Assembly: GCF_003851545.1 (NCBI RefSeq)
Contig: NZ_BHVX01000001.1
Coordinates: 372,001-436,000 of the forward strand
Source: Ralstonia sp. SET104
Lineage (GTDB): Bacteria; Pseudomonadota; Gammaproteobacteria; Burkholderiales; Burkholderiaceae
Length of the DNA: 64,000 nt
Direction of reading: 5' to 3'
In this document: positions 24,103 to 46,503 of the stretch, one piece after another
Layout of the letters: every line of letters begins with the position of its first letter
Position numbering within the stretch: the stretch's first letter is position 1
Made by a program: the position numbers and the translations under genes
Notes under the pieces: generated by a model
Databases searched by the model: none
Told to the model about the DNA's origin: nothing
What the model saw: the letters and a program-made list of their open reading frames with translations, nothing else

Positions 24103-24394
24103 CAATGGCGCAAAGAATTCAAAAAGCGCGTCCAAATGGCCCCAAAAACAGCCCAAAACGGGAAAAGGACGAACATAAATCAGGGCAAGAGTGCGGCGTC
24201 GCGTGTGTTGCGGCCTGCAAATTTTGCTCGCAAGTATACATAGCCACGCGAGCCAGGCGTTTTGTGCGCTGCACAATGCACTTCGGGCTCAAGACGTCAA
24301 CGCCGACGCCGTTGTAACGTTATTGAAAGGTAACGGTTCGATTTCACGGGCCGACTTCACGCGTACATCGCCCCCTGCTTTCCAAGCAAATTCC

Positions 24395-27067: not shown

Positions 27068-27107
27068 GTCAGAAAGAACGCCCAAAGCACAACGGAAAGC
27101 TGATTGC

Positions 27108-29675
27108 ATGGAAGTCTCTCGTATCCGGGCCTTGCGTGGCCCGAATCTCTGGTGTCGCCACACGGCCATTGAGGCCATCGTGGCCTGCTCGGATCAATCG
27201 CTCCTGCTGGCCGAACTGCCGGGCTTTGAAGACCGCCTGCGCGCGCGTTTTCCGGCCATCGGGCCGCTGCGGCCGGATGACGAAGCCAGCGCGCCGTCGA
27301 TGGCGCACGCGCTGGAAGCCGCAGCGCTTGGCCTGCAGGCCGCCGCCGGTTGCCCAGTCACGTTCGGCCATACCGAGCCCACGCTCGAACCCGGCACGTA
27401 CCAGGTGGTGGTCGAATACAGCGAAGAGGAGGTGGGGCGGCTGGCGTTCGAGCTGGCCGGCCAACTCTGCCTGGCCGCGCGCGACGACCAGCCGTTCGAT
27501 CTTGATGAGGCGTTGCATCGGCTGCGCGATCTCGATGAAGACGTGCGCCTGGGCCCGAGCACCGGTTCCATCGTCTACGCCGCTGTGGCGCGCGGCATTC
27601 CATACCGCCGGCTGACGCAGGGCTCGATGGTGCAGTTCGGCTGGGGCAGCAAGCAGCGCCGCATTCAGGCGGCCGAGACCGACATGACCAGCGCGGTGGC
27701 CGAGTCCATCGCGCAGGACAAGGACCTGACGAAGACCCTGCTGCACGCGGCCGGTGTGCCGGTGCCGCTGGGCCGCTCCGTCACCAGCGCAGAACAAGCG
27801 TGGGAAGCCGCGCAGGAGATCCACGGCCCGGTCGTGGTCAAGCCGCGCGACGGCAACCAGGGCAAGGGCGTGGCGGTGCGCATCCGCACGCGCGAAGAAG
27901 TGATGACGGCCTACGAAGTGGCGGCCGACATTTCGTCCGACGTGATCGTCGAGCGCTACATTCCTGGCCATGATTTCCGCCTGCTCGTGGTGGGCAAGCA
28001 TCTGGTGGCGGCCGCGCGCCGCGACCCGCCGCAAGTCATCGGCGACGGCAAGCACACGGTGCGCGAGCTGGTTGAAGAAGTGAACCGCGACCCGCGCCGG
28101 GGCGTTGGACATGCCACGTCGCTCACGAAAATCCGCTTTGACGATATTGCGCTGGCCACGCTTGCCAAGCAGGGCCTGAGCGCCGACGCGGTGCCGCCCA
28201 AAGGCACGCGCGTGGTGTTGCGCAACAACGCAAACCTTTCCACCGGCGGCACCGCCACCGACGTGACCGACGACGTCCACCCCGCCATTGCCGCGCGCGC
28301 CGTGGCGGCCGCGCAGATGGTCGGGCTCGACATCTGCGGTGTGGATGCGGTGTGCGAAACGATGCTCAAGCCGTTCGAGGAGCAAGCCGGCGGCATTGTG
28401 GAAGTCAACGCCGCGCCGGGCCTGCGCATGCACCTGCAGCCGTCTTACGGCAAGGGCCGTGCCGTGGGCGAAGCCATCGTCTCGACAATGTTTGCCGATG
28501 GCGACGATGGCCGCATTCCTGTGGTGGCGGTTTCCGGCACCAACGGCAAGACGACGACGGTGCGCCTGATCACCCATCTGCTGGCCACCAGTGGCCTGCG
28601 CATGGGCATGACCGGCACCGATGGTGTGTACATCCAGGGCCAGCGCATTGACACCGGCGATTGCAGCGGCCCGCGCAGCGCGCGCAATGTGCTGCTGCAT
28701 CCGGACGTGGACGCCGCCGTGTTTGAAACCGCGCGCGGCGGCCTGCTGCGCGAAGGCCTGGCCTTCGACCGCTGCGATGTGGCTGTGGTCACCAACGTGG
28801 GCGAAGGCGACCACCTGGGCCTGAACTACATCAGCACGGTCGAAGATCTGGCCGTGCTCAAGAGCGTGATCGTGCAGAACGTGGCGCCGAAGGGCATGGC
28901 GGTGCTGAACGCCGCCGACCCGATGGTTGCGCGCATGGCCGATGCCTGCCCCGGTTCGATCACGTTCTTCGCACACGATGTGGGCTTGCCAACCATGGCG
29001 CTGCATCGCGCGCAGGGCAAGCGTGTGGTGTTTGTCGACAGCGCAGAGATTGTGGCGACCGAAGGTGCCAACGAAACGCGCATCGCGCTGGCCGATATTC
29101 CGCTCACACGCAACGGCACCATCGGCTTCCAGGTCGAGAATGCAATGTCGTCGATTGCCGCCGCGTGGGCGCTTGGCATCGACTGGGCGGTAATCCGTCG
29201 CGGGCTGGCTACGTTTGTGAACGATGCTGCAACGGCGCCGGGCCGCTTCAACCTGTTCGACTACAAGGGCGCCACGCTCATCGCCGACTACGGCCACAAC
29301 CCGGATGCCATCCAGGCGCTGTGCAACGCCGTGGCGACCATGCCGGCACAGCGCCGCATGGTGGTGATCAGCGGTGCGGGCGACCGCCGTGATGAGGACA
29401 TCCGCAAGCAGACGCAGATTCTTGGCGACGTGTTTGATGACGTGGTGCTGTACGAAGACCAGTGCCAGCGTGGGCGTGAAGATGGTGAAGTGCTGGCGCT
29501 GCTGCGGGAGGGGTTGCAGGGCGCTCAGCGGACCAGTCGCATTGAAGAAATCCGCGGAGAGTTTCTTGCCATCGATACGGCGTTGGGGCGGTTGCAGTCT
29601 GGTGATCTTTGCCTGATTTTGATCGATCAGGTGGAAGAGGCGCTGGAGCATATTGCCAAGCGGGTGGCTGAGTAA
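27108..29675 (+). CDS. cphA: Cyanophycin synthetase, second paralogue (CphA)
   Basis: An 855-residue CphA that builds multi-L-arginyl-poly-L-aspartate by ATP-dependent addition of Asp to the backbone and Arg to the side chain. The ATP-grasp domain has KPRDGNQGKGVAV and EVNAAPGLRMH. The Mur-ligase-like domain has GTNGKTTT (from residue 477), ETARGGLLREGL, DYGHNPDAI and GAGDRRDED, all canonical. The N domain is diverged: the GGFLMR region is missing and the HxxEH site is replaced by a segment reading SMAHALEAAALGLQ. It lies 40 bp after the first paralogue, probably cotranscribed. No cyanophycinase or isoaspartyl dipeptidase gene is in the window. Confidence 0.93.
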   Translation: MEVSRIRALRGPNLWCRHTAIEAIVACSDQSLLLAELPGFEDRLRARFPAIGPLRPDDEASAPSMAHALEAAALGLQAAAGCPVTFGHTEPTLEPGTYQVVVEYSEEEVGRLAFELAGQLCLAARDDQPFDLDEALHRLRDLDEDVRLGPSTGSIVYAAVARGIPYRRLTQGSMVQFGWGSKQRRIQAAETDMTSAVAESIAQDKDLTKTLLHAAGVPVPLGRSVTSAEQAWEAAQEIHGPVVVKPRDGNQGKGVAVRIRTREEVMTAYEVAADISSDVIVERYIPGHDFRLLVVGKHLVAAARRDPPQVIGDGKHTVRELVEEVNRDPRRGVGHATSLTKIRFDDIALATLAKQGLSADAVPPKGTRVVLRNNANLSTGGTATDVTDDVHPAIAARAVAAAQMVGLDICGVDAVCETMLKPFEEQAGGIVEVNAAPGLRMHLQPSYGKGRAVGEAIVSTMFADGDDGRIPVVAVSGTNGKTTTVRLITHLLATSGLRMGMTGTDGVYIQGQRIDTGDCSGPRSARNVLLHPDVDAAVFETARGGLLREGLAFDRCDVAVVTNVGEGDHLGLNYISTVEDLAVLKSVIVQNVAPKGMAVLNAADPMVARMADACPGSITFFAHDVGLPTMALHRAQGKRVVFVDSAEIVATEGANETRIALADIPLTRNGTIGFQVENAMSSIAAAWALGIDWAVIRRGLATFVNDAATAPGRFNLFDYKGATLIADYGHNPDAIQALCNAVATMPAQRRMVVISGAGDRRDEDIRKQTQILGDVFDDVVLYEDQCQRGREDGEVLALLREGLQGAQRTSRIEEIRGEFLAIDTALGRLQSGDLCLILIDQVEEALEHIAKRVAE

Positions 29676-31377: not shown

Positions 31378-32766
31378 TCAGGCGCACGCCATCAGGTTGG
31401 CCACACCCTGAGTGGCTTGCGCGCGGATGCTTGCCACATCCAACCCACACACCACACCCTCATCCACCACCACGCGCCCGCCGATGATGCTGGTGCGCAC
31501 GGTGATGGGCTCGCCAGCCACCACGGGCGCGAGCGCCAGATCGTGGAAGCCATAGAAGCGCGGGTGGTTGGTGTCGTAGAGCACCAGATCGGCCGCTTGC
31601 CCGATCTGCAGCGTGCCGACTTCACTCAAACCGAGCACGCGTGCGCCGCCAGCGGTGGCCCAGTGGATCACGTCTTCGGCGGTGGTGGCGCTGGCGCCTT
31701 GGGCGGCGCGGTGGATCAGCCAGGCAGTGTTGACCTCGCCGGTCATGCTGCCCGATTCGTTTGATGCCACGCCGTCCACCCCTAATGACACCGGCACACC
31801 GGCTGCCGCCAGTTGCGGCACCGGTGCGATGCCGCTGCCCAGCCGGCTGTTGCTGACCGGGCAGTGCGCGATGCCGCTGCCCGTTTGCGCCAGCATGCGG
31901 ATCTCCGACGGTTGCAGGTGCACAAGGTGCGCAAACCAGACGTCAGGCCCCAGCCACTCGTGCTCGGCCACAAACTCCACCGGCAGGCAGTTGTATTTCT
32001 CGCGGCAAAAGCGCACGTAGTTGTCGGTTTCAGACAGGTGCGTGTGCATGCGCAGGTTCATGCTGCGCGCGGCATGCGCCAGCTCCACCAGCAATGCCGG
32101 CGGCAGTGAGAACGTGGGCGTGGTCGGCGCCACCACCACACGGCGCATCGCGTCAGGGGCGTCATCGTGATAGCGATGTTTGAGCCGTTCAATGTCGGCC
32201 AGCATCTGGTCGAGCGTCTCAGGTTGCAGCGCCGTCTTCGAGAAGCCCGGATGACTGTTGGCCGATTCGATTGCGCCGCCGCGGCACAGCACAAAGCGCA
32301 TGCCGAATTCATCGGCCACGTCGAACAGCATATCGCCCGACTCGGTGCTGCCGCTGGCGTGATAGAGGTAGTGGTGGTCGGCACACGTGGTGGCGCCCGA
32401 CAGCAGCAGTTCTGCCATGCCCAGGCGCGCGGCGGTGCGCATCAGTTCCGGCGTGAACAGCGGCAGGCGCGGATATGGCACGCTGGCCAGCCAGCCTTGC
32501 AAGTCCTGGTTCATGCCTTCCGGCACGGCTTTGAGCAGGTTCTGGAACAGGTGATGGTGCGTGTTGATCCAGCCGGGGTAGACGATGCAGTCGCGGGCGT
32601 CGATCACGCGCTCGCCGGGGCGGGGCGTGAGATCGGTGCCCATCTCGGCAATGCGGCCGCCGGCGATGCGGATATCGATGGCCCCGGCGCGCGCCGCGTC
32701 GCCGCGCAGGCCAGTCATGACGGCCATCGGGCAGCGGATGAGGATGTCTTGAGGCGTGTTGTGCAT
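31378..32766 (-). CDS. 8-oxoguanine deaminase-like amidohydrolase (TrzN/AtzB-type superfamily)
   Basis: A 462-residue metal-dependent hydrolase of the cytosine-deaminase-like amidohydrolase group. Metal ligands in family order: HHH at 70-72 (HxH), HTHLSETD (third His and catalytic Glu), AHLVHL and GVDGVASNES (final Asp). The ADHHYLYH segment, the RGG/ESANS region and overall length match 8-oxoguanine deaminases and hydroxyatrazine/s-triazine hydrolases. It should hydrolyse an exocyclic amino group (or other leaving group) from a nucleobase-like N-heterocycle in the cytoplasm. It lies 19 bp downstream of an NCS2 permease, so the permease may import its substrate. It is the last gene of the seven-gene minus-strand operon. 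Confidence 0.85.
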   Translation of the reverse strand: MHNTPQDILIRCPMAVMTGLRGDAARAGAIDIRIAGGRIAEMGTDLTPRPGERVIDARDCIVYPGWINTHHHLFQNLLKAVPEGMNQDLQGWLASVPYPRLPLFTPELMRTAARLGMAELLLSGATTCADHHYLYHASGSTESGDMLFDVADEFGMRFVLCRGGAIESANSHPGFSKTALQPETLDQMLADIERLKHRYHDDAPDAMRRVVVAPTTPTFSLPPALLVELAHAARSMNLRMHTHLSETDNYVRFCREKYNCLPVEFVAEHEWLGPDVWFAHLVHLQPSEIRMLAQTGSGIAHCPVSNSRLGSGIAPVPQLAAAGVPVSLGVDGVASNESGSMTGEVNTAWLIHRAAQGASATTAEDVIHWATAGGARVLGLSEVGTLQIGQAADLVLYDTNHPRFYGFHDLALAPVVAGEPITVRTSIIGGRVVVDEGVVCGLDVASIRAQATQGVANLMACA

Positions 32767-32785
32767 GAGGGTTTCCGATGAAGAA

Positions 32786-34129
32786 TCAGGCGCGGCCGGC
32801 AGTGCGCACGACGGATGCTGGCACGTGCTCCTCTTCCGTGCCGTTGAGCAGCAGGTTCAGCCCCACCGACACCAGGCAGGCGATCACCACCCCGCTGTGC
32901 AGGAACGGTTGCGACCAGTCGGGCATCTGCTTGAGCAGCGCCGGGGCGAGCACCGGCACCAGCGCGGCAGCAATCGTGAAGCCCACGATCAGCACGTTGT
33001 AGCGGTTCTCTTCGTAGTCCACGCGGGCGAGCGTCTGGATGCCCGCGGCGGCCACCACACCAAACATGGCGATGCCGGCGCCGCCCAGTGCAGCCGGTGG
33101 CGTGGTGGCAATCACGGCGCCTGCCTTGGGTACCAGTGCAACCAGGCACATCAGTACGCCGCTCACGGCCACCACCCAGCGGCTGCGCACGCCGGTGAGC
33201 ACCACCAGCCCAACGTTCTCCATGAAGGCGATGAACGGGAAGGCCGCGAACATGCCGGCAATGGCACTGGCCAAGCCGTTGGCGCGCAGGCCGTTGATGG
33301 CTTCTTCCTCGTGGATGGGCTTCTCGACAATATCGCCGATGGCCAGGAACAGGCCCATCGATTCCACCATTTGCACGATCATCACCACGATCATGGTCAG
33401 CGCCGGCACCAGGGCAAAGATGGGCATCCCGAAGTGGAACGGCACCGGCAGCGTTGCCCAGGGGGCTTCTGCCACGCCATGAAAGCTGCCCATGCCCAGC
33501 GCGTAGCCAAGCAGCGAGCCGACGATCATGCCGATCAGCACGGCAAGGTTGCGCAACAGCGGGCTGCCGAAACGGTTGATGAGAAGGATGGTGAGCACCA
33601 CGACGACGGCCACCGTCAGGTACAGCGGCGCACCGAAGTTGGGGGCATTGCGCCCGCCGCCCACCCAGTCATAAGCAACCGGAAAGAGCTGCAGGCCGAT
33701 GACGGTCACGATGCAGCCCGTGACCACCGGTGGAAAAAATCGCCGCAGCCGCCCCACCAGCGGTGCGGCGAGCAGCGTAAACAGGCCGGCCGTAATGACC
33801 GCACCGCACACGCCCGCGAAACCTACGGCAGGGTTGGTGCCGATGGCAATCACCGGCCCCACGCTGCTGAACGCGACCCCTTGCAGGATCGGCAACCGTA
33901 CCCCGAACTTCCAGAACCCGATGGTCTGCAACAGTGTGGCGATGCCCGAGCAGAACAACGTGGTGCTGATGAGGACAATGGTGTCCGCCTGCGACATCTT
34001 GAGCGCCGATGCAATGATCAGCGGCACCGCGATGGCGCCGATGTACGACACCGCCATATGCTGCAAGCCCAACGTCAACATCTGTCGGGTCGAGAGAATC
34101 TGGTCGACCGGGTGTACGGCTGTTGTCAT
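32786..34129 (-). CDS. NCS2-family nucleobase:cation symporter
   Basis: A 447-residue inner-membrane permease of the nucleobase-cation symporter-2 (uracil/xanthine) family with about 14 hydrophobic segments. LGLQHMAVSYIGAIAVPLI in TM1 and ENVGLVVLTGVRSRW match the NCS2 signature (family QNxGxxxxTxxxSR; the first Gln is Glu here). ATG at 34129 has AAAGGAGA about 6 nt upstream. The last two genes of the operon pair this permease with an oxoguanine-deaminase-like enzyme, which suggests a purine-like or other N-heteroaromatic substrate. Exact ligand unknown. Confidence 0.9.
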   Translation of the reverse strand: MTTAVHPVDQILSTRQMLTLGLQHMAVSYIGAIAVPLIIASALKMSQADTIVLISTTLFCSGIATLLQTIGFWKFGVRLPILQGVAFSSVGPVIAIGTNPAVGFAGVCGAVITAGLFTLLAAPLVGRLRRFFPPVVTGCIVTVIGLQLFPVAYDWVGGGRNAPNFGAPLYLTVAVVVVLTILLINRFGSPLLRNLAVLIGMIVGSLLGYALGMGSFHGVAEAPWATLPVPFHFGMPIFALVPALTMIVVMIVQMVESMGLFLAIGDIVEKPIHEEEAINGLRANGLASAIAGMFAAFPFIAFMENVGLVVLTGVRSRWVVAVSGVLMCLVALVPKAGAVIATTPPAALGGAGIAMFGVVAAAGIQTLARVDYEENRYNVLIVGFTIAAALVPVLAPALLKQMPDWSQPFLHSGVVIACLVSVGLNLLLNGTEEEHVPASVVRTAGRA

Positions 34130-34203
34130 GGTTGTCTCCTTTCGTTGTCATGCCCGGGGCGTGCCATGGGCCGCCCACAGGTCAGGGGGATGTCATGGCA
34201 TGC

Positions 34204-35298
34204 TCACGCCGCCAGACACGCGTTGAAACCGTCCTGCAGGGCTGCGCGATCGAGGTGGCGGCCGATGAAGACGATCTTGCTGCTGCGCGCTTCACTGCCC
34301 CAGGGCTGTGTTGCGCGAAAGTCAATGAGGCTGTGCACGCCCTGCAGCACATAGCGCTGCGCCTGGCCCTGCACGGCCAGGATGCCCTTCATGCGGTACA
34401 GCGTTTCGGCCTGTTCGGTGCGCAGGGTTTCGATCCAGGTGTGAAAGCGGGCGAGGTCCACGTCGGCCGGCACATCAAAGCCCACGGAGCTGACGCTCGG
34501 ATCGTGCTGGTGGTCGGGCTCATGTTCATGTTCATGCGCGTGGGCGTGGTCATTGCCGTGAGCATGATCATGATCGTGATGCTCGCCATGGCCAGCATCC
34601 GCGCCGATCTCCAGCAGCTTCTGCGTGGCCTCGAATGCGCCCACGCCGATGATCTTGTTCAGGTCGATCTCGGCATAGCTGGAGGTGACGATGCCGGCCG
34701 TGGCGTTCAGCCCGCGGATGCGCCCGCGCAGTGCGGCAACGGCATCGTCGTCCACCAGATCCACCTTGTTGATGACGATGCGGTCTGCGCAGACGATCTG
34801 ATCGACGGCCTGATTGTCGACGCCGTCCAGCTGCAGGTCGTCCAGGTGTGCGCAGATGTGCTTGGCATCGACCATGGTGACGATGGCATCCAGCTCCACA
34901 TGCTCAGCAATCGGGTCGTCGATGAAGAACGACTGCGCGACCGGATACGGATCGGCCAGGCCGCTGGTTTCCACCAGGATGTGGTCGAGCCGCTCCGGGC
35001 GTGCCACGAGCTGGCGCACGATGCGCACGAGGTCTTCGCGCACTTCGGCTGTACAGCACACGCAGCCGTTGACCATCTCGTAGATCTCTTCGTTCTCAGA
35101 GGCCATCACCAGGCCGCCGTCGATACCGACCTCGCCGAATTCGTTTTCGATCACGGCGATCTTGCGCCCGTGGTTCTCACGCAGGATGAAGTTGAGCAGC
35201 GTGGTTTTGCCTGCGCCCAGGAAGCCGGTCAGGATGGTGACCGGGATCTTGGTGTTCGGGCCGGGCAAATGGGCGTGCAGGTTTGCGTGCGAGGTCAT
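34204..35298 (-). CDS. CobW-family (COG0523) metal-trafficking GTPase with His-rich loop
   Basis: A 364-residue G3E P-loop GTPase. P-loop GFLGAGKT (25-32), metal-binding CVCC (79-82, family CxCC), ETSGLADP and NKVD are all present, then the C-terminal CobW domain. A long His/Asp/Glu stretch (about residues 226-258, many HDH and HEH repeats) precedes that domain and is likely a metal-storage loop. Such proteins deliver Zn or Co to target enzymes. The gene overlaps the UbiX gene by 4 bp and lies within an operon encoding three amidohydrolases, so metallation of those enzymes is a reasonable inference. Confidence 0.9.
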   Translation of the reverse strand: MTSHANLHAHLPGPNTKIPVTILTGFLGAGKTTLLNFILRENHGRKIAVIENEFGEVGIDGGLVMASENEEIYEMVNGCVCCTAEVREDLVRIVRQLVARPERLDHILVETSGLADPYPVAQSFFIDDPIAEHVELDAIVTMVDAKHICAHLDDLQLDGVDNQAVDQIVCADRIVINKVDLVDDDAVAALRGRIRGLNATAGIVTSSYAEIDLNKIIGVGAFEATQKLLEIGADAGHGEHHDHDHAHGNDHAHAHEHEHEPDHQHDPSVSSVGFDVPADVDLARFHTWIETLRTEQAETLYRMKGILAVQGQAQRYVLQGVHSLIDFRATQPWGSEARSSKIVFIGRHLDRAALQDGFNACLAA

Positions 35299-35945
35299 GC
35301 GATCTCCTTGTCAATCGTGGGTGGGGTACGGACTAAGGTTGGTAAGGCGTGTTCGCCCCAGCGCAGGGCGGTGCCGGCATCGAGCCCGAAAAGGTCGAGT
35401 ACGCGGCCGAGGGTGTGGTCGATCATGTCGTCCAACGTATTGGGGCGCGCATAGAAGGCCGGCACCGGCGGGGCGACGATGGCGCCCATCTCCGTGACGG
35501 CCTGCATGTTGCGCAGATGTGCCAGCGTGAATGGCGTCTCGCGCGCCATCAGAACCAGCGGGCGGCGCTCCTTGAGCGTGACGTCCGCCGCGCGTGTGAG
35601 CAGCGTCGACGAAACGCCGGTGGCGATCTCCGCCAGCGATTTCATCGAGCACGGCGCCACGATCATGCCGAGCGCGCGAAACGATCCGCTGGCAATGCCG
35701 GCGGCCATGTCGTCTGCACGGTGGTAGTGCGTAGCGCGGCCGATCACGTCGGCCAGCTTGTACGGCGTTTCGTGCGTCATCGTCAGCAGGGCAGACCGTG
35801 TGACGACGAGGTGCGTCTCCACCTCCAGCGCCCGCAGCAGTTCCAGCAGGCGCACGCCGTAGATGAAGCCCGATGCGCCGCTGATGCCGACCACCATGCG
35901 CGGGGGCGTCACAGGTCGAAGCTGCTGAACGTGGCGCGCATTCAT
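35295..35945 (-). CDS. UbiX-like flavin prenyltransferase
   Basis: A 216-residue protein of the UbiX/Pad1 family that makes prenylated FMN from FMN and dimethylallyl phosphate for UbiD enzymes. Core segments: VVGISGASGFIYGVRLLELL (phosphate/flavin loop), VTRSALLTM, GSFRALGMIVAPCSMKSLAEIATG, and RRPLVLMARETPFTLAHLRNM. ATG at 35945 overlaps the UbiD stop by 4 bp, and its own stop overlaps the CobW start by 4 bp, giving tight coupling. The pairing with the adjacent UbiD supports a dedicated cofactor supply rather than ubiquinone synthesis. Confidence 0.92.
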   Translation of the reverse strand: MNARHVQQLRPVTPPRMVVGISGASGFIYGVRLLELLRALEVETHLVVTRSALLTMTHETPYKLADVIGRATHYHRADDMAAGIASGSFRALGMIVAPCSMKSLAEIATGVSSTLLTRAADVTLKERRPLVLMARETPFTLAHLRNMQAVTEMGAIVAPPVPAFYARPNTLDDMIDHTLGRVLDLFGLDAGTALRWGEHALPTLVRTPPTIDKEIA

Positions 35946-37333
35946 GACTGCACTCCGGCTTTGACGAGAATCTCGCTTGCCCGCGCAATGACCGCCGGAT
36001 CGATGCGCGCGCGGATGCCCTCGAAGCTGGCGCCGCGTGTGGCGTCGATACCCATGCGCGAGGTGGTGCCGTGCACCGACGACGATGGATCGAGCGGGCT
36101 GCCCGGCAGGCCATCGATCATGAACAGATCCTGATGCGGCTGAAAATGCGTGGCCATGGCCCACAGCACCTGTTCGTCCTGCTGCAGATCGATGTCTGAG
36201 TCCACGGCAATCACGGTCTTGAGGTATGGGTCCCAGCCGAGCAGGGCCAGCATGATCTGACGTGCCTCGCCGTCGCGCGTGGGGTTGAGCGCCACGTAGC
36301 AGTGGAAGTGCGTGCCCGAGTTGGGGTAGTGCAGCGCCGTGACCGATGGGAAGCGCGCCTTGAGCTTCTCGCTCATCTCGGCTTCGCGCGGCAGGCGGGC
36401 CAACGTGAGGTGCTCGGCGTACTGGCCGCCCACCACGTCGACCAGCCACGCATCGCGCCGGCGCATCAGCGAATCGATGCGCAGCACGTTGTTAGTGGAG
36501 CGATCCGACGAATAGCCGGTGAACTCGCCGAACGGGCCTTCTTCCGCATAGGCTGCCGGGTCGATGGTGCCTTCCAGCACGAACTCCGCCGCCGCCGGCA
36601 CGCCGATGCCGTAGCGCGGCGTGCGGACGATATCGAGCGGCGCGCCCAGCAGGCCCCCGGCCACGGCACGCTCATCGGCGCCGAAGGGCAGGCGCGCGGC
36701 GGCGGCCAGCATGAACAGCGGATGCGCGCCCACCACCATGGCCACGCGCAGCACGTCGCCACGCTCGCGTGCGGTCTGCAGCATGCGCCACAAGTGCCCG
36801 CGCGAGTGCAGGCTGGTGGCCAGCGCATTGCGTGCGTGGCGCATCGAGCGGTGATAGCTCATGTTCGACACGCCTGTCACCGGGTCCTCAGCCACGATGA
36901 TGGCGTTGGTGATGTAGGGTGCGCGGTCGCTCTCGAAATGCTTGATCATCGGCAGCAGTGCAACGTCCACCGCATCGCCCTCGATCACCTCGTCGGTGAT
37001 GGGCCCTTGCGAAACGACACGCGGTGCGATGGGGGCATTGGCACGCGCCTGAAAGGCGTCGTGCAGTTGCGGCGGCGACACGTCAAACAACCGTGCCAAC
37101 CGTGTGCGCGAGGCAAAGACATTGGTGACCAGTGGCACCTGCAGGCCGCTGACCTGCTCGCAGACCAGCATGGGGTTGCGGTTGCGCGCAGCAAGCTGAT
37201 CGATGACGGCCGTGACATCCTGATCGGCGCAGATGCCGTTGTGCAGGGTCAGCACATCTTCCGGATACAGCTCGCGATAGAGATTGGCGAAGACGTGGAA
37301 ATCCTGGCCTTCGCCAAGCCGGGTCATGCTCAT
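35942..37333 (-). CDS. UbiD-family prenyl-FMN-dependent (de)carboxylase
   Basis: A 463-residue UbiD-fold enzyme. Start at 37333, where GAGG lies 6 nt upstream; an upstream Met at 37396 is less likely. Family segments seen: NMSYHRSMRHARNALAT (metal/prFMN region), VVGAHPLFMLAAAARLP, EFVLEGTIDP, EEGPFGEFTGYSSDRS (catalytic Glu region), and TVIAVDSDIDL. UbiD enzymes reversibly decarboxylate aromatic, heteroaromatic and alpha,beta-unsaturated acids. The neighbours (two ACMSD-like amidohydrolases, NCS2 permease, deaminase, molybdenum hydroxylase) argue for a catabolic aromatic or N-heteroaromatic acid, not ubiquinone biosynthesis. Specific substrate not determinable. Confidence 0.92.
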   Translation of the reverse strand: MSMTRLGEGQDFHVFANLYRELYPEDVLTLHNGICADQDVTAVIDQLAARNRNPMLVCEQVSGLQVPLVTNVFASRTRLARLFDVSPPQLHDAFQARANAPIAPRVVSQGPITDEVIEGDAVDVALLPMIKHFESDRAPYITNAIIVAEDPVTGVSNMSYHRSMRHARNALATSLHSRGHLWRMLQTARERGDVLRVAMVVGAHPLFMLAAAARLPFGADERAVAGGLLGAPLDIVRTPRYGIGVPAAAEFVLEGTIDPAAYAEEGPFGEFTGYSSDRSTNNVLRIDSLMRRRDAWLVDVVGGQYAEHLTLARLPREAEMSEKLKARFPSVTALHYPNSGTHFHCYVALNPTRDGEARQIMLALLGWDPYLKTVIAVDSDIDLQQDEQVLWAMATHFQPHQDLFMIDGLPGSPLDPSSSVHGTTSRMGIDATRGASFEGIRARIDPAVIARASEILVKAGVQS

Positions 37334-37396
37334 GGCACACCTCGCTAGAGGCGGGCGCCCAACACCACAGAGGCGCGGCGCCCGCGGGATCGGCAC

Positions 37397-38320
37397 TCAG
37401 GCCGCTTCTGCTGTCTGGACGTAGGTCGACTTCAGGCGCAGTTCTGCCTCGGCCAAGTCCTTGGGCGGCTTGGTAGGCTCGATGCCGACCAGTCGCGCAA
37501 TGTTGTTGCCCAGATAGTCTTCAAGGTGGTCTTCATCAATGCCCAGCCCTTGCGGCGGCGCCGAGCACAGCACCTCCAGCTCGCGCAGCCACATGCCGGG
37601 CTCGTTGGGCGGCGAATCGGTGCCAAAGACGATCTTGTCGCGCGGCAACTGCTTCGCAAATTCAACGATGCGCGACTGGAAGCACCAGCCCGATTCGCAG
37701 TACACGTTGGGCGTATCCATCGCCATCCAGAACGCCTCGAACGAGTAGTTACCGCCGGTCTGGATACCGAAGTGGCCAATGATGAAGTTCACCATCGGGA
37801 ACTCGCGGATGATCGGGTAGAACATCGTCGGGATGGTGTACGGGCCGTCGCCGGTGTGGATCAGCACCACGATGTTGTACTTGGCGCAAACCTTCATGGC
37901 CGGGCGCAGCCAGTCCAGCGCGCGGTCGGGGCGGTAGCCGTGCATGTTGGCGTGCAGCTTGACCATCTTGAAGCCGTATTCCTTGATGTGGAATTCCAGC
38001 TCCGCCGCGCCGTTCTCTGGGCCCCAGCGCGGGTTGTAGGTGAAGTTGCCGATGAAGCGGTCGGGGTACTTCTGCGTGAGTTCGGCGATGTACGCCATGT
38101 AGTCGCGAATGCCTTCGCGGCCACGGCGGTTGCCGTCGCGGTAGCCGGTGTTGCCCGGCGGCGGTTGGATGAAACCCATGCCGATGCGGCGCGGCTTGCC
38201 GTTGATCATGTAGGGGCCGTCCATCAACTGGATCATGCGCTCGCCGTTGAACGGCGTGCCGGTGTGGCGCCACGCCTCGTCAACGAGGTTGGTCGGGTGC
38301 AGATGGGTATCGATAATCAT
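37397..38320 (-). CDS. ACMSD-like amidohydrolase family 2 protein, intact metal site
   Basis: A 307-residue TIM-barrel metal-dependent hydrolase/decarboxylase of the amidohydrolase_2 family, which includes ACMSD and gamma-resorcylate decarboxylase. The strand-1 HxH (H6-L-H8 in DTHLHP) is present, together with VLIHTGDG, IIGHFGIQTGG and FGTDSPPNEP, so the usual Zn ligands look complete. It is about 60 percent identical by eye to the next upstream paralogue (38349-39260), which lacks HxH. Second gene of the operon, 28 bp after that paralogue. Substrate unknown; decarboxylation or hydrolysis of a ring product is likely. Confidence 0.88.
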   Translation of the reverse strand: MIIDTHLHPTNLVDEAWRHTGTPFNGERMIQLMDGPYMINGKPRRIGMGFIQPPPGNTGYRDGNRRGREGIRDYMAYIAELTQKYPDRFIGNFTYNPRWGPENGAAELEFHIKEYGFKMVKLHANMHGYRPDRALDWLRPAMKVCAKYNIVVLIHTGDGPYTIPTMFYPIIREFPMVNFIIGHFGIQTGGNYSFEAFWMAMDTPNVYCESGWCFQSRIVEFAKQLPRDKIVFGTDSPPNEPGMWLRELEVLCSAPPQGLGIDEDHLEDYLGNNIARLVGIEPTKPPKDLAEAELRLKSTYVQTAEAA

Positions 38321-38348
38321 GTGTGCGCTCCGTGCGTTCTGCGGTGGC

Positions 38349-39260
38349 TCAGGCGGCAGCCAGCGCGCGCTGCGCTTCGGCTTCGGCCACGGTCTTGGGC
38401 GGACGGGTCGGCTCCAAGCCGATCATGCGGGCGATGTTGTTGCCCAGGTAATCCTCGAGCGTGTCTTCATCGAGGTTCAGACCCTGCGGCGGGTCCATGC
38501 ACAGCACCTCCAGCAGACGCAGCCACATGCCGGGCTCGTTGGGTGGCGTGTCGGTACCGAACAGGATTTTGTGCTTGGGCAGCACCTTGGCAAATTCAAC
38601 AATGCGCGACTGCAGGCACCAGCCCGATTCGCAGTACACGTTGGGCAGCTCCATGGCCCACTGCATCGGCTCGAACACGTACACGCCGCCGGTCTGCACA
38701 CCGAAGTGCGCCATGATGAAATCGACGTTGGGGAAGCGCTTGATCATCGGAATCCATTCCGACGGGATGCTGTAAGGGCCGTCTCCGGTGTGCAGCTTGA
38801 CGGGCACGCCCAGCTCGGCGCATTTCTCAAAGGCCGGCATCACCCAGTCCAGCGCGCGGTCGGGCCGGTAGGCGTGCATGTTGGCCTGCATCTGGACCAT
38901 CTTGAAACCGTGCTCTTTGACGTAGCGCTCGATGGCTTCCACGCCGTTCTGCACGCCGCAGCGCGGGTTGTAGACGAAGCAGCCGATGAAGCGGTCGGGG
39001 TACGTCTGCACCATCTTGAGCGTGTACGCCATGTAGGCGTCGATGGATTCGCGGCCCGAAAGCTCGCCGTCTGTCCACGTATAGATGGTGTTGCCCTGCG
39101 GCGGCTGGATGAAGGCCTTGTCGATACGGCGCGGCTTGCCGTTGATCATGTAGGGGCCGTCCATCATTTCGAGCAGGCGCTCGCCGGTAAAGGGGTCGCC
39201 GTCGTGCCACCACGCGAGGTCCACCAGGTCGGTGGGGTAGCAGCTGATGTCGATGATCAT
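38349..39260 (-). CDS. ACMSD-like amidohydrolase paralogue lacking the HxH metal motif
   Basis: A 303-residue amidohydrolase_2 protein and the first gene of the operon; ATG at 39260 with AGGAG 8 nt upstream. It closely parallels the downstream paralogue (MDGPYMINGKPRRI, YGFKMV versus HGFKMV, NVYCESGWC, LEDYLGNNIARM), but the N-terminal THLHP is replaced by ISCYP, so both HxH histidines are gone. Later candidate ligands (KLHTGDG, AHFGVQTGG, FGTDTPP) remain. It could bind metal differently, be a non-catalytic partner of its paralogue, or have a changed reaction. Confidence 0.87.
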   Translation of the reverse strand: MIIDISCYPTDLVDLAWWHDGDPFTGERLLEMMDGPYMINGKPRRIDKAFIQPPQGNTIYTWTDGELSGRESIDAYMAYTLKMVQTYPDRFIGCFVYNPRCGVQNGVEAIERYVKEHGFKMVQMQANMHAYRPDRALDWVMPAFEKCAELGVPVKLHTGDGPYSIPSEWIPMIKRFPNVDFIMAHFGVQTGGVYVFEPMQWAMELPNVYCESGWCLQSRIVEFAKVLPKHKILFGTDTPPNEPGMWLRLLEVLCMDPPQGLNLDEDTLEDYLGNNIARMIGLEPTRPPKTVAEAEAQRALAAA

Positions 39261-39461
39261 CGTTGGATCTCCTGATGACTGGGAGGAAGCGCGTGATGGC
39301 TTCCCGGTGAGGGCAGGCACGTCCTGCAGCGCGGCGCTCTTTGCTAGGCGTGTGCCTTCCCCTCGCCGGATCGCGTGATGCCGGATGCGTGCTGCTTGGG
39401 GCGCAGTATCGGAGTCAGGGCCGGGGGCCGGCCAATACTATTTGGCGGCGGTCTTGATACG

Positions 39462-39477
39462 TTGCCGATATCGGCAA
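39462..39477. promoter_or_regulatory. Perfect 16-bp palindrome upstream of the UbiD/amidohydrolase operon
   Basis: TTGCCGATATCGGCAA, a perfect palindrome in the 240-bp gap between the LysR gene and the operon start. Length and symmetry suit a LysR-type binding site for the neighbouring regulator. Confidence 0.55.
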
Positions 39478-39500
39478 GTCGGTAGGAAGGCGGCGGGCGC

Positions 39501-40394
39501 TCAGCCGCCCAGCGTGTCGCGCGCGAGTTGTTGCACTGCGTTCACCACCGCCTGTGCGCGCTGGCCCTGGCCGCGTTGCCACACGGCATACAGGTTGTAG
39601 TGCGCCGGGATGGCCACATCGGTCAGTTGCACGAGGCGCCCATGCTGCAGCGCGTCGGCGGCCAGCAGCCCGCGCACCAGCGCCACGCCCACACCGGACT
39701 CAGCCGCGGCAACCATGTTGGCCGCGTTGTCAAAAGCGGCCACCACGGCGGGTTCCAGCGGCTCTTGCGCGGCCGCATCCAGCCAGGGAATCCACGAGCG
39801 CCGCGTGTAGCCCAGCAGCGGCAGTGTCATCACCGCCGAGGGTGCCAGCGGCACCTGTACGCCATGCCGCTCCAGCAGGGCGGGTGCCGCCACGGCGGTG
39901 ACGTGATCGCCGCAGATCAGGGTCAGCTCGCAGTCATCCCATTCGCCATAGCCGTAGCGCAGCGACACATCCACACGCTCGAACGAGGGCCGCTCGCCGC
40001 GCGTGGTGGACAGGAACATCACCTGATACCCCGGCAGTGCCCCCAGCAACTGCGGCAGCCGCGCGTTGAGCCAGCCCTGTGCCAGTTCGCTGTCAACGTC
40101 GACGATGAGCGTTTGCGGCACGTGCCGGTTGCGCACGGAAGACAGTGCCCGGTCCACCTGCCCGAAGCCATCCGTGAGCATGCTGGCGAAGAGCTGGCCG
40201 GCGTCTGTCAGCACGATGCCGCCGGCCTCGCGCACGAACAGCGGCTGGCCGATGAACTCCTCCAGCGAGCGAATCTGCTGGCTGATGGCGCTGTGCGTCA
40301 GGTCCAGTTGCTGCGCGGCCTTGGTAAAGCTGCCGGTGCGTGCAGCCTGCAGGAAGGCATGCATCGACTGGATCGACGGATAACGCTTGTACAT
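39501..40394 (-). CDS. LysR-family transcriptional regulator, GcvA-like
   Basis: A 297-residue LTTR. The N-terminal HTH ([43 protein letters not shown]) is canonical, and a periplasmic-binding-like effector domain follows from about residue 90. The ligand domain contains [13 protein letters not shown], reminiscent of GcvA-type regulators. It sits between the seven-gene operon (same strand) and the divergent molybdenum hydroxylase genes, so it probably controls both. Effector presumably the cluster's substrate. Confidence 0.88.
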
Positions 40395-40526
40395 GGCAGC
40401 CCTTACTTACCTGTTAGTTCGACTTACACGGGTTGGCAGAAATCGTCGCTGGCGGGGCACCGGGGCGCGGCTTCATATTGCAGCCAGGAGCGGCCGCACA
40501 AGATGGCCAGGTTTCTGGAGGAAACA

Positions 40527-40994
40527 ATGATGACCGACATTCTGATCAATGGCACCCCCCATGCGCTGCACGATGCCGACGCTGACATGCCCCTGCTGTG
40601 GGTACTGCGCGACCGGCTCAAGCTGACTGGCACCAAGTTTGGCTGCGGCGGCGGCTTCTGCGGGGCCTGCACGGTCCACCTGGATGGCGCGCCGATCCGC
40701 GCGTGCATCACACCGGCATCGGTCGCTGCCGGGCACAAGATCACCACCATCGAAGGGCTGTCGAAAGACGGCACCCACCCGCTGCAGCGTGCCTGGGTGG
40801 CTGAGGACGTGCCGCAGTGCGGCTACTGTCAGTCGGGGCAGATCATGTCCGCAGCCGCGCTGCTGGCGTCTGGTGGCCCCGTCAATGACGCGGCCATCAC
40901 CCATGCCATGGCCGGCAACATCTGCCGCTGCGGCACCTACGGGCGCATCCGCCAGGCCATCAAGCGCGCCGCTGACGAGCGAGGCAAGGCATGA
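40527..40994 (+). CDS. Molybdenum hydroxylase [2Fe-2S] small subunit, IorA-like
   Basis: A 155-residue ferredoxin-type subunit. Plant-type [2Fe-2S] ligands C40, C45, C48 and C60, and the second cluster ligands C98, C101, C133 and C135, all match the xanthine-dehydrogenase small-subunit pattern. ATG at 40527 follows GGAGG with a 5-nt gap; an adjacent ATG at 40530 is alternative. Overlaps the large-subunit gene by 4 bp. Similar to isoquinoline 1-oxidoreductase alpha subunits. It passes electrons from the Mo centre to an external acceptor. Confidence 0.92.
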
Positions 40995-43210
40995 ACGCGC
41001 TGCATGAATTGCCTGCACCGATGCTCGACGCTCCATCCCGCCGCCGCTTCCTGCGGCAAAGCGCGCTGCTAACAGCAGGGCTGGCAGTCGGCTTTCGCCT
41101 GCCGGATGCGCTGGCCGCCAGCCAGGATGCCGCCGCGGGCGAGTTTGAACCCAACGCCTGGGTGCGCGTGCTGGCCGACAACACGGTCAAGATCGTCGTC
41201 CACAAGCATGACTCCGGCACCGGCACGCAAACGGCCCTGGCCGCCTGCGTGGCGGAAGAGCTGGATGTGGACCCGATGCGCATCGCCGTCATTACGCCCG
41301 AACACCCGTTCTTTCAGGACTACATCCACCCGATCTGGAAGGTGTATTCCACCGGTGGCAGCACCAGCGTGTCGCTTGAATATGCGCGGCTGCGGCAGGC
41401 TGGCGCCACGGCGCGCGCGATGCTCGTGAGCGCGGCCGCGCAGCATTGGGGCGTGCCGGTTGCCAACTGCAGCACAGCGGATGGCACCGTCATCTGCGCC
41501 GACGGCCGCAAGGCCACCTACGGCGAACTGGCCGACGCCGCAGGCCGCTTGCCCGCGCCTGCCAACGTCGCGCTCAAGAACCCGGCGGATTTCAAATACA
41601 TCGGCAAGCTGCGCCACAAGCGCGATGCGCTGGCCAAGGCCACGGGCCGTTTCCAATACGGTATCGACGTGGCATTGCCCGGCATGCTGGTGGCGGTGGT
41701 GCAGCGCGCGCCCATGCCTGGCGCACGTGTGCGGCATATCGATAGCACCGGTGCGCTGAAGGTGCGCGGCGTGCGGCAAGTCATCATGATTCCGCTGCGG
41801 TCTGACGTGCTGGGCGGCAACCAGGAAGGCGTGGCCGTGCTGGCCGACGACTACTGGGCAGCCAACAGGGGCCGCGCCGCACTCAAGGTCGAGTGGGACG
41901 ACAGCGCCTTCGCCGATTTTGACAGCGGGCATGTTGCCGAGCATCAGGCCGCGTGGCTCGCCAGCGGCAAGGCCCGCGTGGTGCACACCGTCCAGGCGGG
42001 CAACACGGACGTGGCGATCGTGCACGGCGCAAAGCGCATCAGCGCGGCCTACCGCATGCCCTACAAGCAGCAGAACCCACTGGAGCCCGTCAATATCACC
42101 GCGTGGCTCAAGGACGGAACGATTCAGTACTGGGGCGGCATCCAGGTGCCCTCCACCGCGATGGAAGCGGCCGAGACGATCTGCGGCCTGCCGCGCGACA
42201 AGGTGGTGCTGCACGAGATGGTGTCGGGCGGCAGCTTTGGCGCACGCGAGAGCAAGTACTGGCTGTTCGAGGTGAGCTACCTCGCCAAGAAGACCGGCGT
42301 GCCGGTCAAGCTGATGAACAGCCGCGAAGACGAGATGCGCGCGCTGTACGGCCACCCTGCCACGTATCACCAGCTCGACGGCGCGCTCGATGCGCAGGGC
42401 CGGCTGGACGCGCTGCGCATCCGCGCGGTGTCGCCGGCCTCGCCCGAGCAGTGGGAGCCCGGTTACTTCGATCGCCCCGACCGCATGGACTACAGCACCA
42501 CCGAGGCCATCTCGAAGTGGGATTTTCCCTACCGCGCCAACCACATGGACATCGGCTGGGTGCGCCACGAAACGGGCATCCCGACGGGCTGGTACCGGGC
42601 CGTCAGCTTCATCCCCAACGTATTCGCCACCGAGAGCTTCATGGACGAGCTGGCCGTGGCGGCCAAGCGTGATCCGTTGGATTTTCGTGTTGCGCATATG
42701 GCCGACCGGCCGCGCCATGTGGAGGTGCTGCGCACCGCCGCGCAGCGCGCCGGGTGGGGCAAGACTGCGCATGGGCATGCGCTGGGCGTGGCCACGCACC
42801 AGGCCTATGACAGCTACATCGCCGTGGTGGCACAGGTGGCGCGCAAGGATGGCCGCGTGGTGGTGGAAAAGCTCACCTGCGTGGCGGATGTTGGCTTGGC
42901 CGTCTCGCGCACCGGCGTGGAAGAGCAGCTCTATGGCGGCCTGATGTGGGGCCTCGGCCATGCGCTGTTCGACCGTATCGACATCCAGGGCGGCGCCGTC
43001 CGGCAGAGCAACTTCCACGACTACCCGGTGATGCGCATGTCTGACATGCCCGCCATCGAGATCGTTATCGTGGACGGCAACCGCGACAAGCCCGGCGGTG
43101 TGGGCGAGCTGGCCAACCCGCCGGTGGCGCCGGCCATTGCCAACGCCATCTTCCGCCTGACTGGCAAGCGCCAGCGCGAGACGCCGTTCAAGCTCGACTT
43201 GCAGGGCTAG
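40991..43210 (+). CDS. Molybdenum hydroxylase large subunit, IorB-like, Tat-exported
   Basis: A 739-residue molybdopterin-binding subunit of the xanthine oxidase family. A twin-arginine signal ([20 protein letters not shown], ending ALA near residue 37) indicates periplasmic location with co-export of the small subunit. Molybdopterin contacts are in [13 protein letters not shown] and the LMNSREDEM region. The catalytic Glu is E706 in [10 protein letters not shown]. Two-domain IorB-type enzymes hydroxylate N-heteroaromatics. No FAD subunit, cytochrome subunit or XdhC-type maturation gene is adjacent. Confidence 0.9.
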
Positions 43211-43218
43211 CGCGCATC

Positions 43219-44145
43219 GTGGACATCCGCCTGCTGCGTTACTTCTCGGTACTGGCCGACGAGCTGCATTTCGGGCGAGCGGCGGCGCGCCTGTTCATGT
43301 CCCAGCCGCCGCTGAGCCAGCAGATTCGCCTGCTGGAAGACGAGATCGGCACGCCGCTGTTCATCCGCAGCCACCATCGCGTGGAACTGACGGCGGCCGG
43401 ACGTACGTTGAAAGAGCAGGCACCGCTGGTGTTTGAGCAGCTCAACCGCGCGCTGGACCTCACGCGGCAGGCGGGCCGTGGGCAAGTCGGCGAGCTGGAA
43501 ATCGGCATGATCAGCTCGGTGATGGTGGGGCTGCTGCCCGAAGCGCTGCGCCAGTTTCGAGAGCGCTATCCGGGCGTCGAATGGCGCCTGAAGGAGATGA
43601 CGCCCGCCGCGCAGGTGGCGGCACTCAAGGAACGGCGTATCGATGCGTGCATCTTTCGTCTGGGCCACGAAGATCCGGCCGTGCGCAGCGAACTGCTGCA
43701 GCACGAGCCGATCGTGATGGCGCTGCCCGCTACGCACCGGTTGGCCGGGCAGGCCAGTCTGCCGCTTGGCGACTTTGCGGGCGAGCCGTTCGTTGCGTTC
43801 GAGTCCAGGCGCTCGCGCTTTGCCGACCACCTGATGCATCTGTGCATCCAGGCTGGCTTCGCACCGCTGGTGCGCCAGCAAGTGACCGAGGTGCAGACGC
43901 TGCTGGCGTTGGTGGGTGCGGGTTTTGGTGTGGCGCTGCTGCCCGGCTCCACGGCCAACCTGGCGCCGCCGGGCGTGGTCTTCCGGCCGCTGGAGCCCGC
44001 GCTGCCGACCGTGCCGCTGTATGTGCATTACCGGGTGGACGACACATCGCCGGTGCTCAAGGCCTTTCTGGAAACGCTGCGAGAGGTCAGCGCGGGTGCC
44101 GATGCCGCAGCTGTCGAACCTCAGCCCGCGCTGGTCAGCCGATAG
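43219..44145 (+). CDS. LysR-family transcriptional regulator, BenM/CatR-like
   Basis: A 308-residue LTTR starting at GTG 43219 (MDIRLLRYFSVLADELHFGRAAARL), 8 bp after the large-subunit stop. The HTH PPLSQQIRLLEDEIG is canonical for the group that includes CatR/BenM, and the effector domain contains GLLPEALRQFRERYPGVEW. Cotranscription with the hydroxylase is possible, giving feedback control. The 3' end overlaps the convergent AraC gene by 25 bp. Confidence 0.88.
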   Translation: MDIRLLRYFSVLADELHFGRAAARLFMSQPPLSQQIRLLEDEIGTPLFIRSHHRVELTAAGRTLKEQAPLVFEQLNRALDLTRQAGRGQVGELEIGMISSVMVGLLPEALRQFRERYPGVEWRLKEMTPAAQVAALKERRIDACIFRLGHEDPAVRSELLQHEPIVMALPATHRLAGQASLPLGDFAGEPFVAFESRRSRFADHLMHLCIQAGFAPLVRQQVTEVQTLLALVGAGFGVALLPGSTANLAPPGVVFRPLEPALPTVPLYVHYRVDDTSPVLKAFLETLREVSAGADAAAVEPQPALVSR

Positions 44146-45308: not shown

Positions 45309-46442
45309 ATGGACGACTTCTATACCGAAGAGCAGCGGATGATCCACGACGCTGCACGCGACTTTGCCACCGAGCGTCTGGCGCCCAACGCCGCGCAGTG
45401 GGACCGAGACGGCGCGCTGCCCGATGACGTGGTCCGCCAGATGGGCGAACTCGGGCTGCTGGGCATGATCGTTCCGCCAGAGTGGGGCGGGTCGTACACC
45501 GACTACGTCGCCTACGCGCTTGCGCTGGAAGAAGTGGCCGCCGGCTGCGCCGCCTGCGCGACGATGATGAGCGTGCACAACTCGGTCGGCTGTGGGCCGA
45601 TTCTGAAGTTCGGCACCGAGGCGCAAAAGGCACGCTACCTGCCGGACCTGGCCACGGGGCGCGCGATTGGCGCGTTCTGCCTGACCGAGCCGCACGCCGG
45701 CTCCGAGGCCAACAACCTGCGTACGCGTGCCGTATTGCGCAACGGAAAGTGGGTGCTCAACGGCAACAAGCAGTTCGTCACCAACGGCGCGCGCGCCGAC
45801 GTCGCCATCGTGTTTGCCGTGACGGACCCTGAAGCTGGCAAACGCGGCATCTCCGCCTTTATCGTGCCCACGGATACGCCGGGCTTTCATGTCGGGCGGC
45901 CGGAGCACAAGCTCGGCATTCGCGCGTCCGATACCTGCCCGATCACGCTGGAAGACTGCGCCGTGCCCGAAGAAAACATGCTGGGTGCGCGCGGCGAGGG
46001 GTTGAAGATCGCGCTGTCGAACCTGGAAGGCGGGCGCATCGGCATTGCCGCACAGGCAGTGGGCATTGCGCGCGCTGCATTTGACGCGGCGCGCAACTAC
46101 GCGAATGAACGCATCCAGTTTGGCAAGGCGCTGCGCGAGCATCAGACCATCGCCAACATGCTGGCCGATATGGCTACGCGCCTGAACGCGGCGCGGCTGC
46201 TCGTCCACCATGCGGCGCGCCTGCGCAGTGCCGACAAGCCCTGCCTGTCTGAAGCGTCGCAAGCCAAGTTGTATGCGTCGGAACTGGCCGAGGAAATCTG
46301 CTCCAACGCCATCCAGATCCACGGCGGCTACGGCTACCTGGCCGACTACGCCGTCGAGCGCCACTACCGCGACGCGCGCATCACCCAGATTTACGAAGGC
46401 ACCAGCGAAGTCCAGCGGATGGTGATTGCGCGGCACGTGTAG
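45309..46442 (+). CDS. Acyl-CoA dehydrogenase, probably isobutyryl-CoA dehydrogenase
   Basis: A 377-residue FAD enzyme. Signature segments: [59 protein letters not shown], and the C-terminal [13 protein letters not shown] with the catalytic base Glu. Position directly before acyl-CoA ligase, mmsA, mmsB, enoyl-CoA hydratase and HIBYL-CoA hydrolase genes fits oxidation of isobutyryl-CoA to methacrylyl-CoA. Electrons go to ETF. A broader short/branched-chain specificity is possible. Confidence 0.9.
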
Positions 46443-46503
46443 CAAGCCTGCACAGCATCGACCGAACACGAAAGAGCGCACACGCGCCGACCAGGAGACG
46501 ACG

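Follow-up and report, generated by a model that had tools for sequence, protein, structure and literature searches.

Which compound do bacteria degrade with a gene set that combines a UbiD-type decarboxylase, a pair of amidohydrolases, a nucleobase-type permease, a deaminase, and a molybdenum (Mo) hydroxylase? The question arises from a 64,000-nt stretch of the Ralstonia sp. SET104 genome (NZ_BHVX01000001.1, 372,001–436,000), hereafter the window, whose own numbering is used for the locus throughout. A sequence-only reading had found these genes and listed purine, pyrimidine, pyridine, and pyrrole derivatives as candidate substrates. Every gene that it named is a full-length open reading frame (ORF) at its place in the ORF list, and family-library scans agree with the assigned families. 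Our best guess is that the pathway is real, widespread, and uncharacterized, with moderate support for the substrate class: the evidence favors a bicyclic pteridine or purine, which shortens the earlier list and adds to it the pteridines, not named there. We put the probability that the locus serves the catabolism of a pteridine, ending in a purine, at about 50%. This reading draws on a deaminase resembling the structure 2paj, on the replacement of the deaminase and the Mo hydroxylase in other taxa, and on genes of urate and allantoin breakdown near the set in two genomes; the link to purines also draws on a permease scoring over the xanthine-permease cutoff.

Conservation of the Gene Set

A protein search with the intact amidohydrolase (AH1) gave 244 candidate stretches, from which 235 relatives were obtained. 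We analyzed loci around the best 80 of the 235, a sample leaning toward close relatives, and these loci extend at most 10 kb from AH1, a few kilobases past the operon. In the window, the seven-gene minus-strand unit consists of the genes for the sister amidohydrolase AH2, AH1, ubiD, ubiX, cobW, the NCS2 permease, and the deaminase. The sequence-only reading had taken these for part of one coherent unit of catabolism that combines uptake of a nucleobase-like compound with deamination, Mo hydroxylation, and decarboxylation by a prenylated flavin mononucleotide (prFMN) enzyme, and had made the idea depend on conservation in other genomes; all seven core genes are indeed on a single strand in 73 of the 80 loci, and the conservation is far beyond chance. 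Six of the remaining loci are short and end at or before the missing genes (L019, L038, L040, L068, L089, and L093), and one lacks the permease (L026). UbiX, UbiD, AH1, and AH2 are each found in all 80. As for spacing, the unit had been described as joined by 4-bp overlaps or short gaps; the short gaps stand (11–74 bp), but the only overlap, of 4 bp, is between cobW and ubiX.

The hosts of the 80 loci belong to Ralstonia, Burkholderia, Paraburkholderia, Caballeronia, Trinickia, Pandoraea, Pseudomonas, Crenobacter, and Marinobacterium, and AH1 is 99–100% identical among the six Ralstonia-type loci (L015–L020). A plasmid collection gave 91 matching records with 182 places in total, in agreement with one amidohydrolase pair per record; 63 of the records are from Sinorhizobium, and the others from Ensifer, Paracoccus, Caballeronia, Burkholderia, Cupriavidus, and Shinella plus three single records. 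Counts in genome draws are uneven and speak against breadth: of 299 genomes in the window's family 62 have AH1 (E 1e-150), of 300 in the order 4 (E 1e-30), and of 369 in the class only the window's own (E 1e-20), and the 11 AH2 matches among 398 genomes of the phylum comprise 4 strong and 7 weak, distant ones.

The Deaminase and the Permease

The deaminase (DEAM; 31378–32766, minus strand) is a COG0402-type amidohydrolase of the Amidohydro_1 family that scores 768.8 bits against the NCBIfam model PRK12393, well over the cutoff of 543. Its best solved relative is 2paj (E 3.1e-136, ~50% identity), titled a putative cytosine/guanine deaminase in the Protein Data Bank. We take 2paj to be an isoxanthopterin deaminase, reportedly that of Hall et al. 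2010. In a tree of 29 sequences, 2paj groups with other Burkholderiales proteins, one of which, from genome G255, is 90% identical to it, and the DEAM proteins of the operon form a neighboring clade with weak support (85/59). 2paj shares four residues, presumably of the pocket, with all 16 operon DEAM proteins in the tree (Gln in HHHLFQ, Tyr in PY, and both Thr in APTT), whereas the 8-oxoguanine deaminase 7ww2 has Cys-Ser in place of Thr-Thr. We considered and rejected DEAM as an 8-oxoguanine deaminase, as it differs in these residues and falls below the curated cutoff (PRK08203, 434.7 against 532 bits). Family and residues together predict a pteridine deaminase of the isoxanthopterin type. 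Enzymes of the group to which DEAM and 2paj belong are reported to deaminate isoxanthopterin and pterin-6-carboxylate (PMC5270733).

DEAM thus resembles the 2paj group in family, identity, and the Gln, Tyr, and Thr-Thr positions, but the surroundings differ: DEAM lies beside UbiD and the amidohydrolase pair, while the 2paj-type relatives in other genomes are mostly found beside ABC-transporter genes. Among 11 loci fetched around deaminase homologs outside the set, each read over 12–17 kb, an ABC-transporter permease gene adjoins the 2paj-like deaminase in seven, and in one (L145) the neighboring operon encodes a permease, an ATPase, and an NMT1-type binding protein. This suggests that the 2paj-like deaminases with ABC transporters (L145, L149, and similar loci) form a separate unit for pterin uptake and deamination. 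In the window, the gene next to DEAM encodes an NCS2 permease (32786–34129, minus strand) of the xanthine-permease subfamily, with 467.4 bits against TIGR03173 (pbuX), over the cutoff.

Replacement of Steps in Other Taxa

The plasmid-borne loci of Sinorhizobium meliloti (pSymB, L111) and Paracoccus (L112 and L114) retain AH2-AH1-UbiD-UbiX but carry a non-orthologous deaminase. It is cytosine-deaminase-like, with PRK07583 as the best model although under its cutoff; the S. meliloti protein is 25% identical to DEAM and 68% identical to that of L112. The Mo hydroxylase of L111 and L112 is a three-subunit enzyme of the xanthine dehydrogenase (XDH) type, and no Mo hydroxylase is listed in the L114 stretch. 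XDH-type Mo subunits also occur ~6 kb from the amidohydrolase pair in two genomes of the window's own family (G158 and G953). Because two different solutions exist for each step, deamination and Mo hydroxylation both seem to belong to the pathway.

In the window, the Mo hydroxylase is of the IorAB type, encoded on the plus strand by a [2Fe-2S] subunit (IorA; 40530–40994 with the start codon read from the sequence, PF01799 over 40533–40994) and a Mo-binding subunit (IorB; 40991–43210, PF02738 and PF20256); none of the ten proteins scanned is an FAD subunit. IorB has an RRRFL signal resembling those of twin-arginine translocation (Tat), and a loose pattern for this motif is matched by 67 of its 71 relatives. 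IorA and IorB are found in 71 of the 80 loci; five of those lacking them have a short flank on that side (L024, L061, L076, L085, and L089), and in L022, L045, L083, and L088 they were not found in ~10 kb of flank.

The Amidohydrolase Pair

AH1 (37397–38320) and AH2 (38349–39260), both on the minus strand, are sister TIM barrels of the Amidohydro_2 family (PF04909) with 65% identity. We compared their motifs, and those of UbiD, in 86 sequences each, representing the 80 loci, the window, and five plasmid loci. The motif Asp-Thr-His-Leu-His-Pro of AH1 is present in all 86, with His-x-His intact, and its counterpart in AH2 is in all 86 Asp-[Ile/Thr/Leu]-Ser-Cys-Tyr-Pro, with Ser-Cys-Tyr in place of His-x-His. 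AH2 also has Gln at the Lys and first His positions of KLHANMHGYR, a motif of AH1, but retains the strand-5 His, the strand-6 His, and the strand-8 Asp. In AH1, whose metal motifs also include H183, the residues H6, H8, H155, and D235 are invariant and match the four ligands (His-x-His, His, and Asp) of a decarboxylase of the ACMSD or iso-orotate decarboxylase (IDCase) type. The metal ligands of IDCase are reported as His12, His14, His195, and Asp323 (PMC8187880); by motif rather than superposition, AH1 has equivalents of all four and AH2 of two.

The sequence-only reading had called the two proteins twin ACMSD-like amidohydrolases, but they are not equivalent. We also rejected two sequential enzymes of the same kind, since all 86 AH2 sequences lack two of the four metal ligands. 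As both the pairing and the motif loss are constant, a single heteromeric enzyme, with AH2 as the predicted partner subunit, is likelier. No other proteins of the set have changed so slowly: median identities to the window, taken outside Ralstonia, are 91.7% (AH1) and 93.6% (AH2), compared with 66.3–80.8% for the other nine proteins.

We modeled AH1 with AlphaFold (32 sequences, mean pLDDT 76.6, pTM 0.82), and the model matches the clan of LigW and the gamma-resorcylate (gamma-RSD), ACMSD, dihydroxybenzoate, and iso-orotate decarboxylases. The 50 matches listed have query template modeling scores of 0.52–0.65 and identities of 11–20%; the function-less structures 3s4t and then 3irs stand at the top of that list, and TatD hydrolases lower. 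AH1 is thus like ACMSD, LigW, gamma-RSD, and IDCase in fold and, by motif, in four metal ligands, but only 11–18% identical in the matches to these enzymes. The modeled fold leans to decarboxylases without deciding between decarboxylase and hydrolase. We know of no member of the ACMSD/LigW/gamma-RSD/IDCase clan that pairs with a partner devoid of His-x-His.

UbiD, UbiX, and CobW

The decarboxylase gene (35942–37333, minus strand) encodes the UbiD domains PF01977, PF20696, and PF20695, and the motif EGPFGEF with the catalytic Glu is conserved in 86 of 86 sequences, next to the constant UbiX partner. The flavin prenyltransferase UbiX (35295–35930, minus strand) is over the cutoff of both TIGR00421 and PRK06029. 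The closest solved relatives of this UbiD are PtHmfF (6h6v) and then AnInD (7p9q), which presumably work among furan and indole genes, in contrast to the NCS2 permease, deaminase, and amidohydrolase pair around the UbiD of the locus. Both are reported to decarboxylate acids on a five-membered heteroaromatic ring, indole-3-carboxylate in the case of AnInD (PMC8988006). As a side observation, the UbiX match in S. meliloti ABS7 (L111, 16468–17100) is in two pieces in different frames with no gene listed, unlike in S. medicae (L117), where a whole UbiX is listed.

The CobW-type GTPase (34204–35298, minus strand; PF02492 and PF07683) has a His-rich stretch, with 16 His within the last 160 residues, and a CxCC motif, GCVCC. 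Judged by these motifs it is likely a metal chaperone, and we predict that it serves AH1, DEAM, or both.

Possible Link to Purine Breakdown

In one genome, G002, genes for urate oxidase (PF06181), an NCS2 permease, a LysR regulator, an M20 hydrolase, PuuE allantoinase (TIGR03212, over the cutoff), a GntR regulator, OHCU decarboxylase (TIGR03164, over the cutoff), and an allantoate-amidohydrolase-like protein are followed by AH2-AH1-UbiD, the FAD and Mo subunits of an XDH-type enzyme, and CobW; a single opposite-strand gene, for an NMT1-type binding protein, lies between the purine and amidohydrolase sets. The same purine genes are ~13 kb from AH2 in G175. Neither genome showed DEAM within the 40 kb read, but each carries a homolog elsewhere, 51–52% identical. 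At the genome level, among 299 genomes of the window's family, urate oxidase occurs in each of the 62 that carry the locus and in 151 of the 237 that do not (Fisher's exact test P = 6e-11, uncorrected for kinship). Downstream catabolism of xanthine and urate is also indicated by xdhB and urate oxidase, both over the cutoff in all six locus-bearing genomes scanned.

Discussion

The Proposed Pathway

A catabolic gene cluster is a known kind of locus. No description of this gene set was found in the open-licence literature, as judged by titles and abstract openings, which upholds the earlier view that no described pathway has the combination, and a search of the same literature did not find the term tetraoxypteridine. 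Our proposal takes its series of compounds from 1960s studies of pteridine breakdown by bacteria: pterin, isoxanthopterin, 7-oxolumazine, tetraoxypteridine, xanthine-8-carboxylate, and xanthine. We know of no genes assigned to that breakdown; the enzyme types predicted for the locus could serve each named step, while the place of the locus in it is our inference. So are every substrate and the order of the steps, the assignments of AH1/AH2 and UbiD being the least certain.

The substrate would be a free pterin or a product of folate breakdown such as pterin-6-carboxylate. Its pyrazine ring would be hydroxylated by the Tat-exported IorAB enzyme, or by the XDH-type enzyme in other taxa, and the product taken up by the NCS2 permease. 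DEAM would then strip the 2-amino group, turning isoxanthopterin into 7-oxolumazine, and a second Mo hydroxylation would give tetraoxypteridine. The AH1/AH2 heteromer, with metal from the CobW protein, would open a cyclic amide, after which the ring would re-close as an imidazole to give xanthine-8-carboxylate. UbiD, with prFMN from UbiX, would decarboxylate this to xanthine, which would enter the urate and allantoin route. In insects, XDH is reported to turn pterin into isoxanthopterin (PMC11121863). Folate degradation in Variovorax resembles the proposal in bacterial pterin deamination, using carboxypeptidase G and a pterin deaminase, but the Variovorax deaminase shares 37% identity with Arad3529, and in the accessible part of the report the deaminated breakdown is shown up to deaminopteroic acid (PMC9513972).

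The full order of steps is doubtful in our estimate. Equally tentative is the most far-reaching version, in which AH1/AH2, a metal-bearing and a metal-less TIM barrel turning pyrazine into imidazole, is the long gene-less ring-contracting enzyme of tetraoxypteridine, the locus is a complete pteridine-to-purine route, and UbiD is the first prFMN-dependent enzyme to decarboxylate a purine carboxylate. The degenerate partner amidohydrolase and the proposed ring contraction would each be new as far as we know. If true, the route would run opposite to the cell's normal purine-to-pterin biosynthesis and would place two role-less enzymes, a UbiD without a known substrate and the constant pair of an active and a degenerate amidohydrolase. 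A testable genetic basis is given by the locus, which is conserved in bacteria from soil, in plant symbionts, and in others (Ralstonia, Caballeronia, Pseudomonas, Sinorhizobium, Paracoccus, and Marinobacterium).

Several observations weigh against a pteridine-to-purine pathway. The weakest point of the order is the last step: the UbiD enzyme HudA is reported to be inactive on imidazole-2-carboxylate, and imidazole C2 is called electron-deficient (PMC7976604). Xanthine-8-carboxylate is an acid of that type, which counts against UbiD acting on it, although xanthines can undergo electrophilic substitution at C8. The best fold matches of AH1 with a named function are mostly decarboxylases rather than ring-opening hydrolases, the identity of DEAM to 2paj is just ~50%, and no AH or UbiD genes were found near the 2paj-like deaminases in the stretches read of the 11 loci outside the set. 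The purine neighborhood rests on two genomes of one family, the same two out of five members of the family of G002, and BLAST (E 1e-25) found PuuE, OHCU decarboxylase, and urate oxidase in none of the 80 loci with their flanks of at most 10 kb. Kinship, and reduced genomes among the locus-free ones, confound the genome-level association of urate oxidase, and xdhB and urate oxidase are also present in both locus-free genomes tested. Finally, the Pseudomonas loci have as neighbors genes for an M20 hydrolase (25 of 80 loci) and an NCS1 permease (18 of 80), possibly genes of pyrimidine breakdown.

Alternative Explanations

The objection from HudA favors the most probable alternative, a pteridine pathway with another division of labor. 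UbiD or AH1/AH2 would decarboxylate a pterin or lumazine derived from folate at position 6, giving 7-oxolumazine and not xanthine; AH1 would act once 7-hydroxylation has created the ortho-oxo acid geometry on which decarboxylases of the amidohydrolase type rely. This fits the four IDCase-type ligands of AH1 (by motif), its fold matches to LigW, gamma-RSD, ACMSD, and IDCase, and the report of pterin-6-carboxylate as a substrate of the group of DEAM (PMC5270733). It would, however, need two decarboxylases for one carboxylate and leaves the purine-degradation genes near the sets of G002 and G175 unexplained. We regard it as possible, on a par with the doubtful full order above.

Those purine genes are accommodated by a somewhat less probable alternative, the catabolism not of a pteridine but of a purine or 7-deazapurine that bears a carboxylate, such as a deazaguanine carboxylate, an acid of the pyrrole-3-carboxylate kind. 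The closeness of UbiD to AnInD, an indole-3-carboxylate decarboxylase, would suit such a substrate, as would the xanthine-type permease and the relationship of DEAM to 8-oxoguanine deaminase. DEAM nevertheless has the residues of the 2paj group and not those of 8-oxoguanine deaminase, and no gene for a deazapurine side chain was recognized among the annotated neighbors, where no dedicated search was made.

A pathway for a monocyclic N-heteroaromatic acid of the pyridine, pyrimidine, or pyrrole type, as listed by the sequence-only reading, is the least likely of the three: a Mo hydroxylase and an ACMSD-type decarboxylase also occur in picolinate pathways, and the Pseudomonas loci adjoin the NCS1 and M20 genes of possible pyrimidine breakdown, but the ten proteins scanned include no ring-cleavage dioxygenase or flavin hydroxylase, the closest solved deaminases (8-oxoguanine deaminase and, as we take it, 2paj) act on bicyclic amines, and the permease belongs to the xanthine subfamily.

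Regulators and Neighboring Genes

A gap of 240 bp separates AH2 from the gene of a GcvA-like LysR-type regulator (39501–40394, minus strand), identified by the family-library scans and with a relative in 71 of the 80 loci. Two candidate LysR operators lie upstream of AH2, a 16-bp palindrome-like site with 5-bp arms at 39431–39446, kept in all six Ralstonia loci (L015–L020), and a 16-bp palindrome at 39462–39477, kept in five of the six. A second gene, LysR by reading of the ORF (43219–44145, plus strand), lies outside the coordinates given earlier to the locus. With a relative in 76 of the 80 loci, it is part of the set, and the unit should be extended to it.

A gene resembling Asp/Glu racemases and arylmalonate decarboxylases lies downstream of the deaminase on the same strand in 17 of the 80 loci (including L021, L027, and L080). 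Its hosts are Caballeronia, Paraburkholderia, Burkholderia, Marinobacterium, and a related metagenome-assembled genome. It was not seen in the window, and an extra pathway step is possible. Beside the locus, ORFs resembling an acyl-CoA dehydrogenase and an acyl-CoA synthetase were read at 45312–48207 (plus strand); as their matches are nearly confined to the six Ralstonia loci, with a single 31% synthetase match elsewhere (L088), they are probably outside the pathway. On the other side, two tandem long ORFs of 958 and 855 amino acids lie at 24191–29675 (plus strand), the second of which, by reading, resembles cyanophycin synthetase (ATP-grasp and Mur-ligase type).

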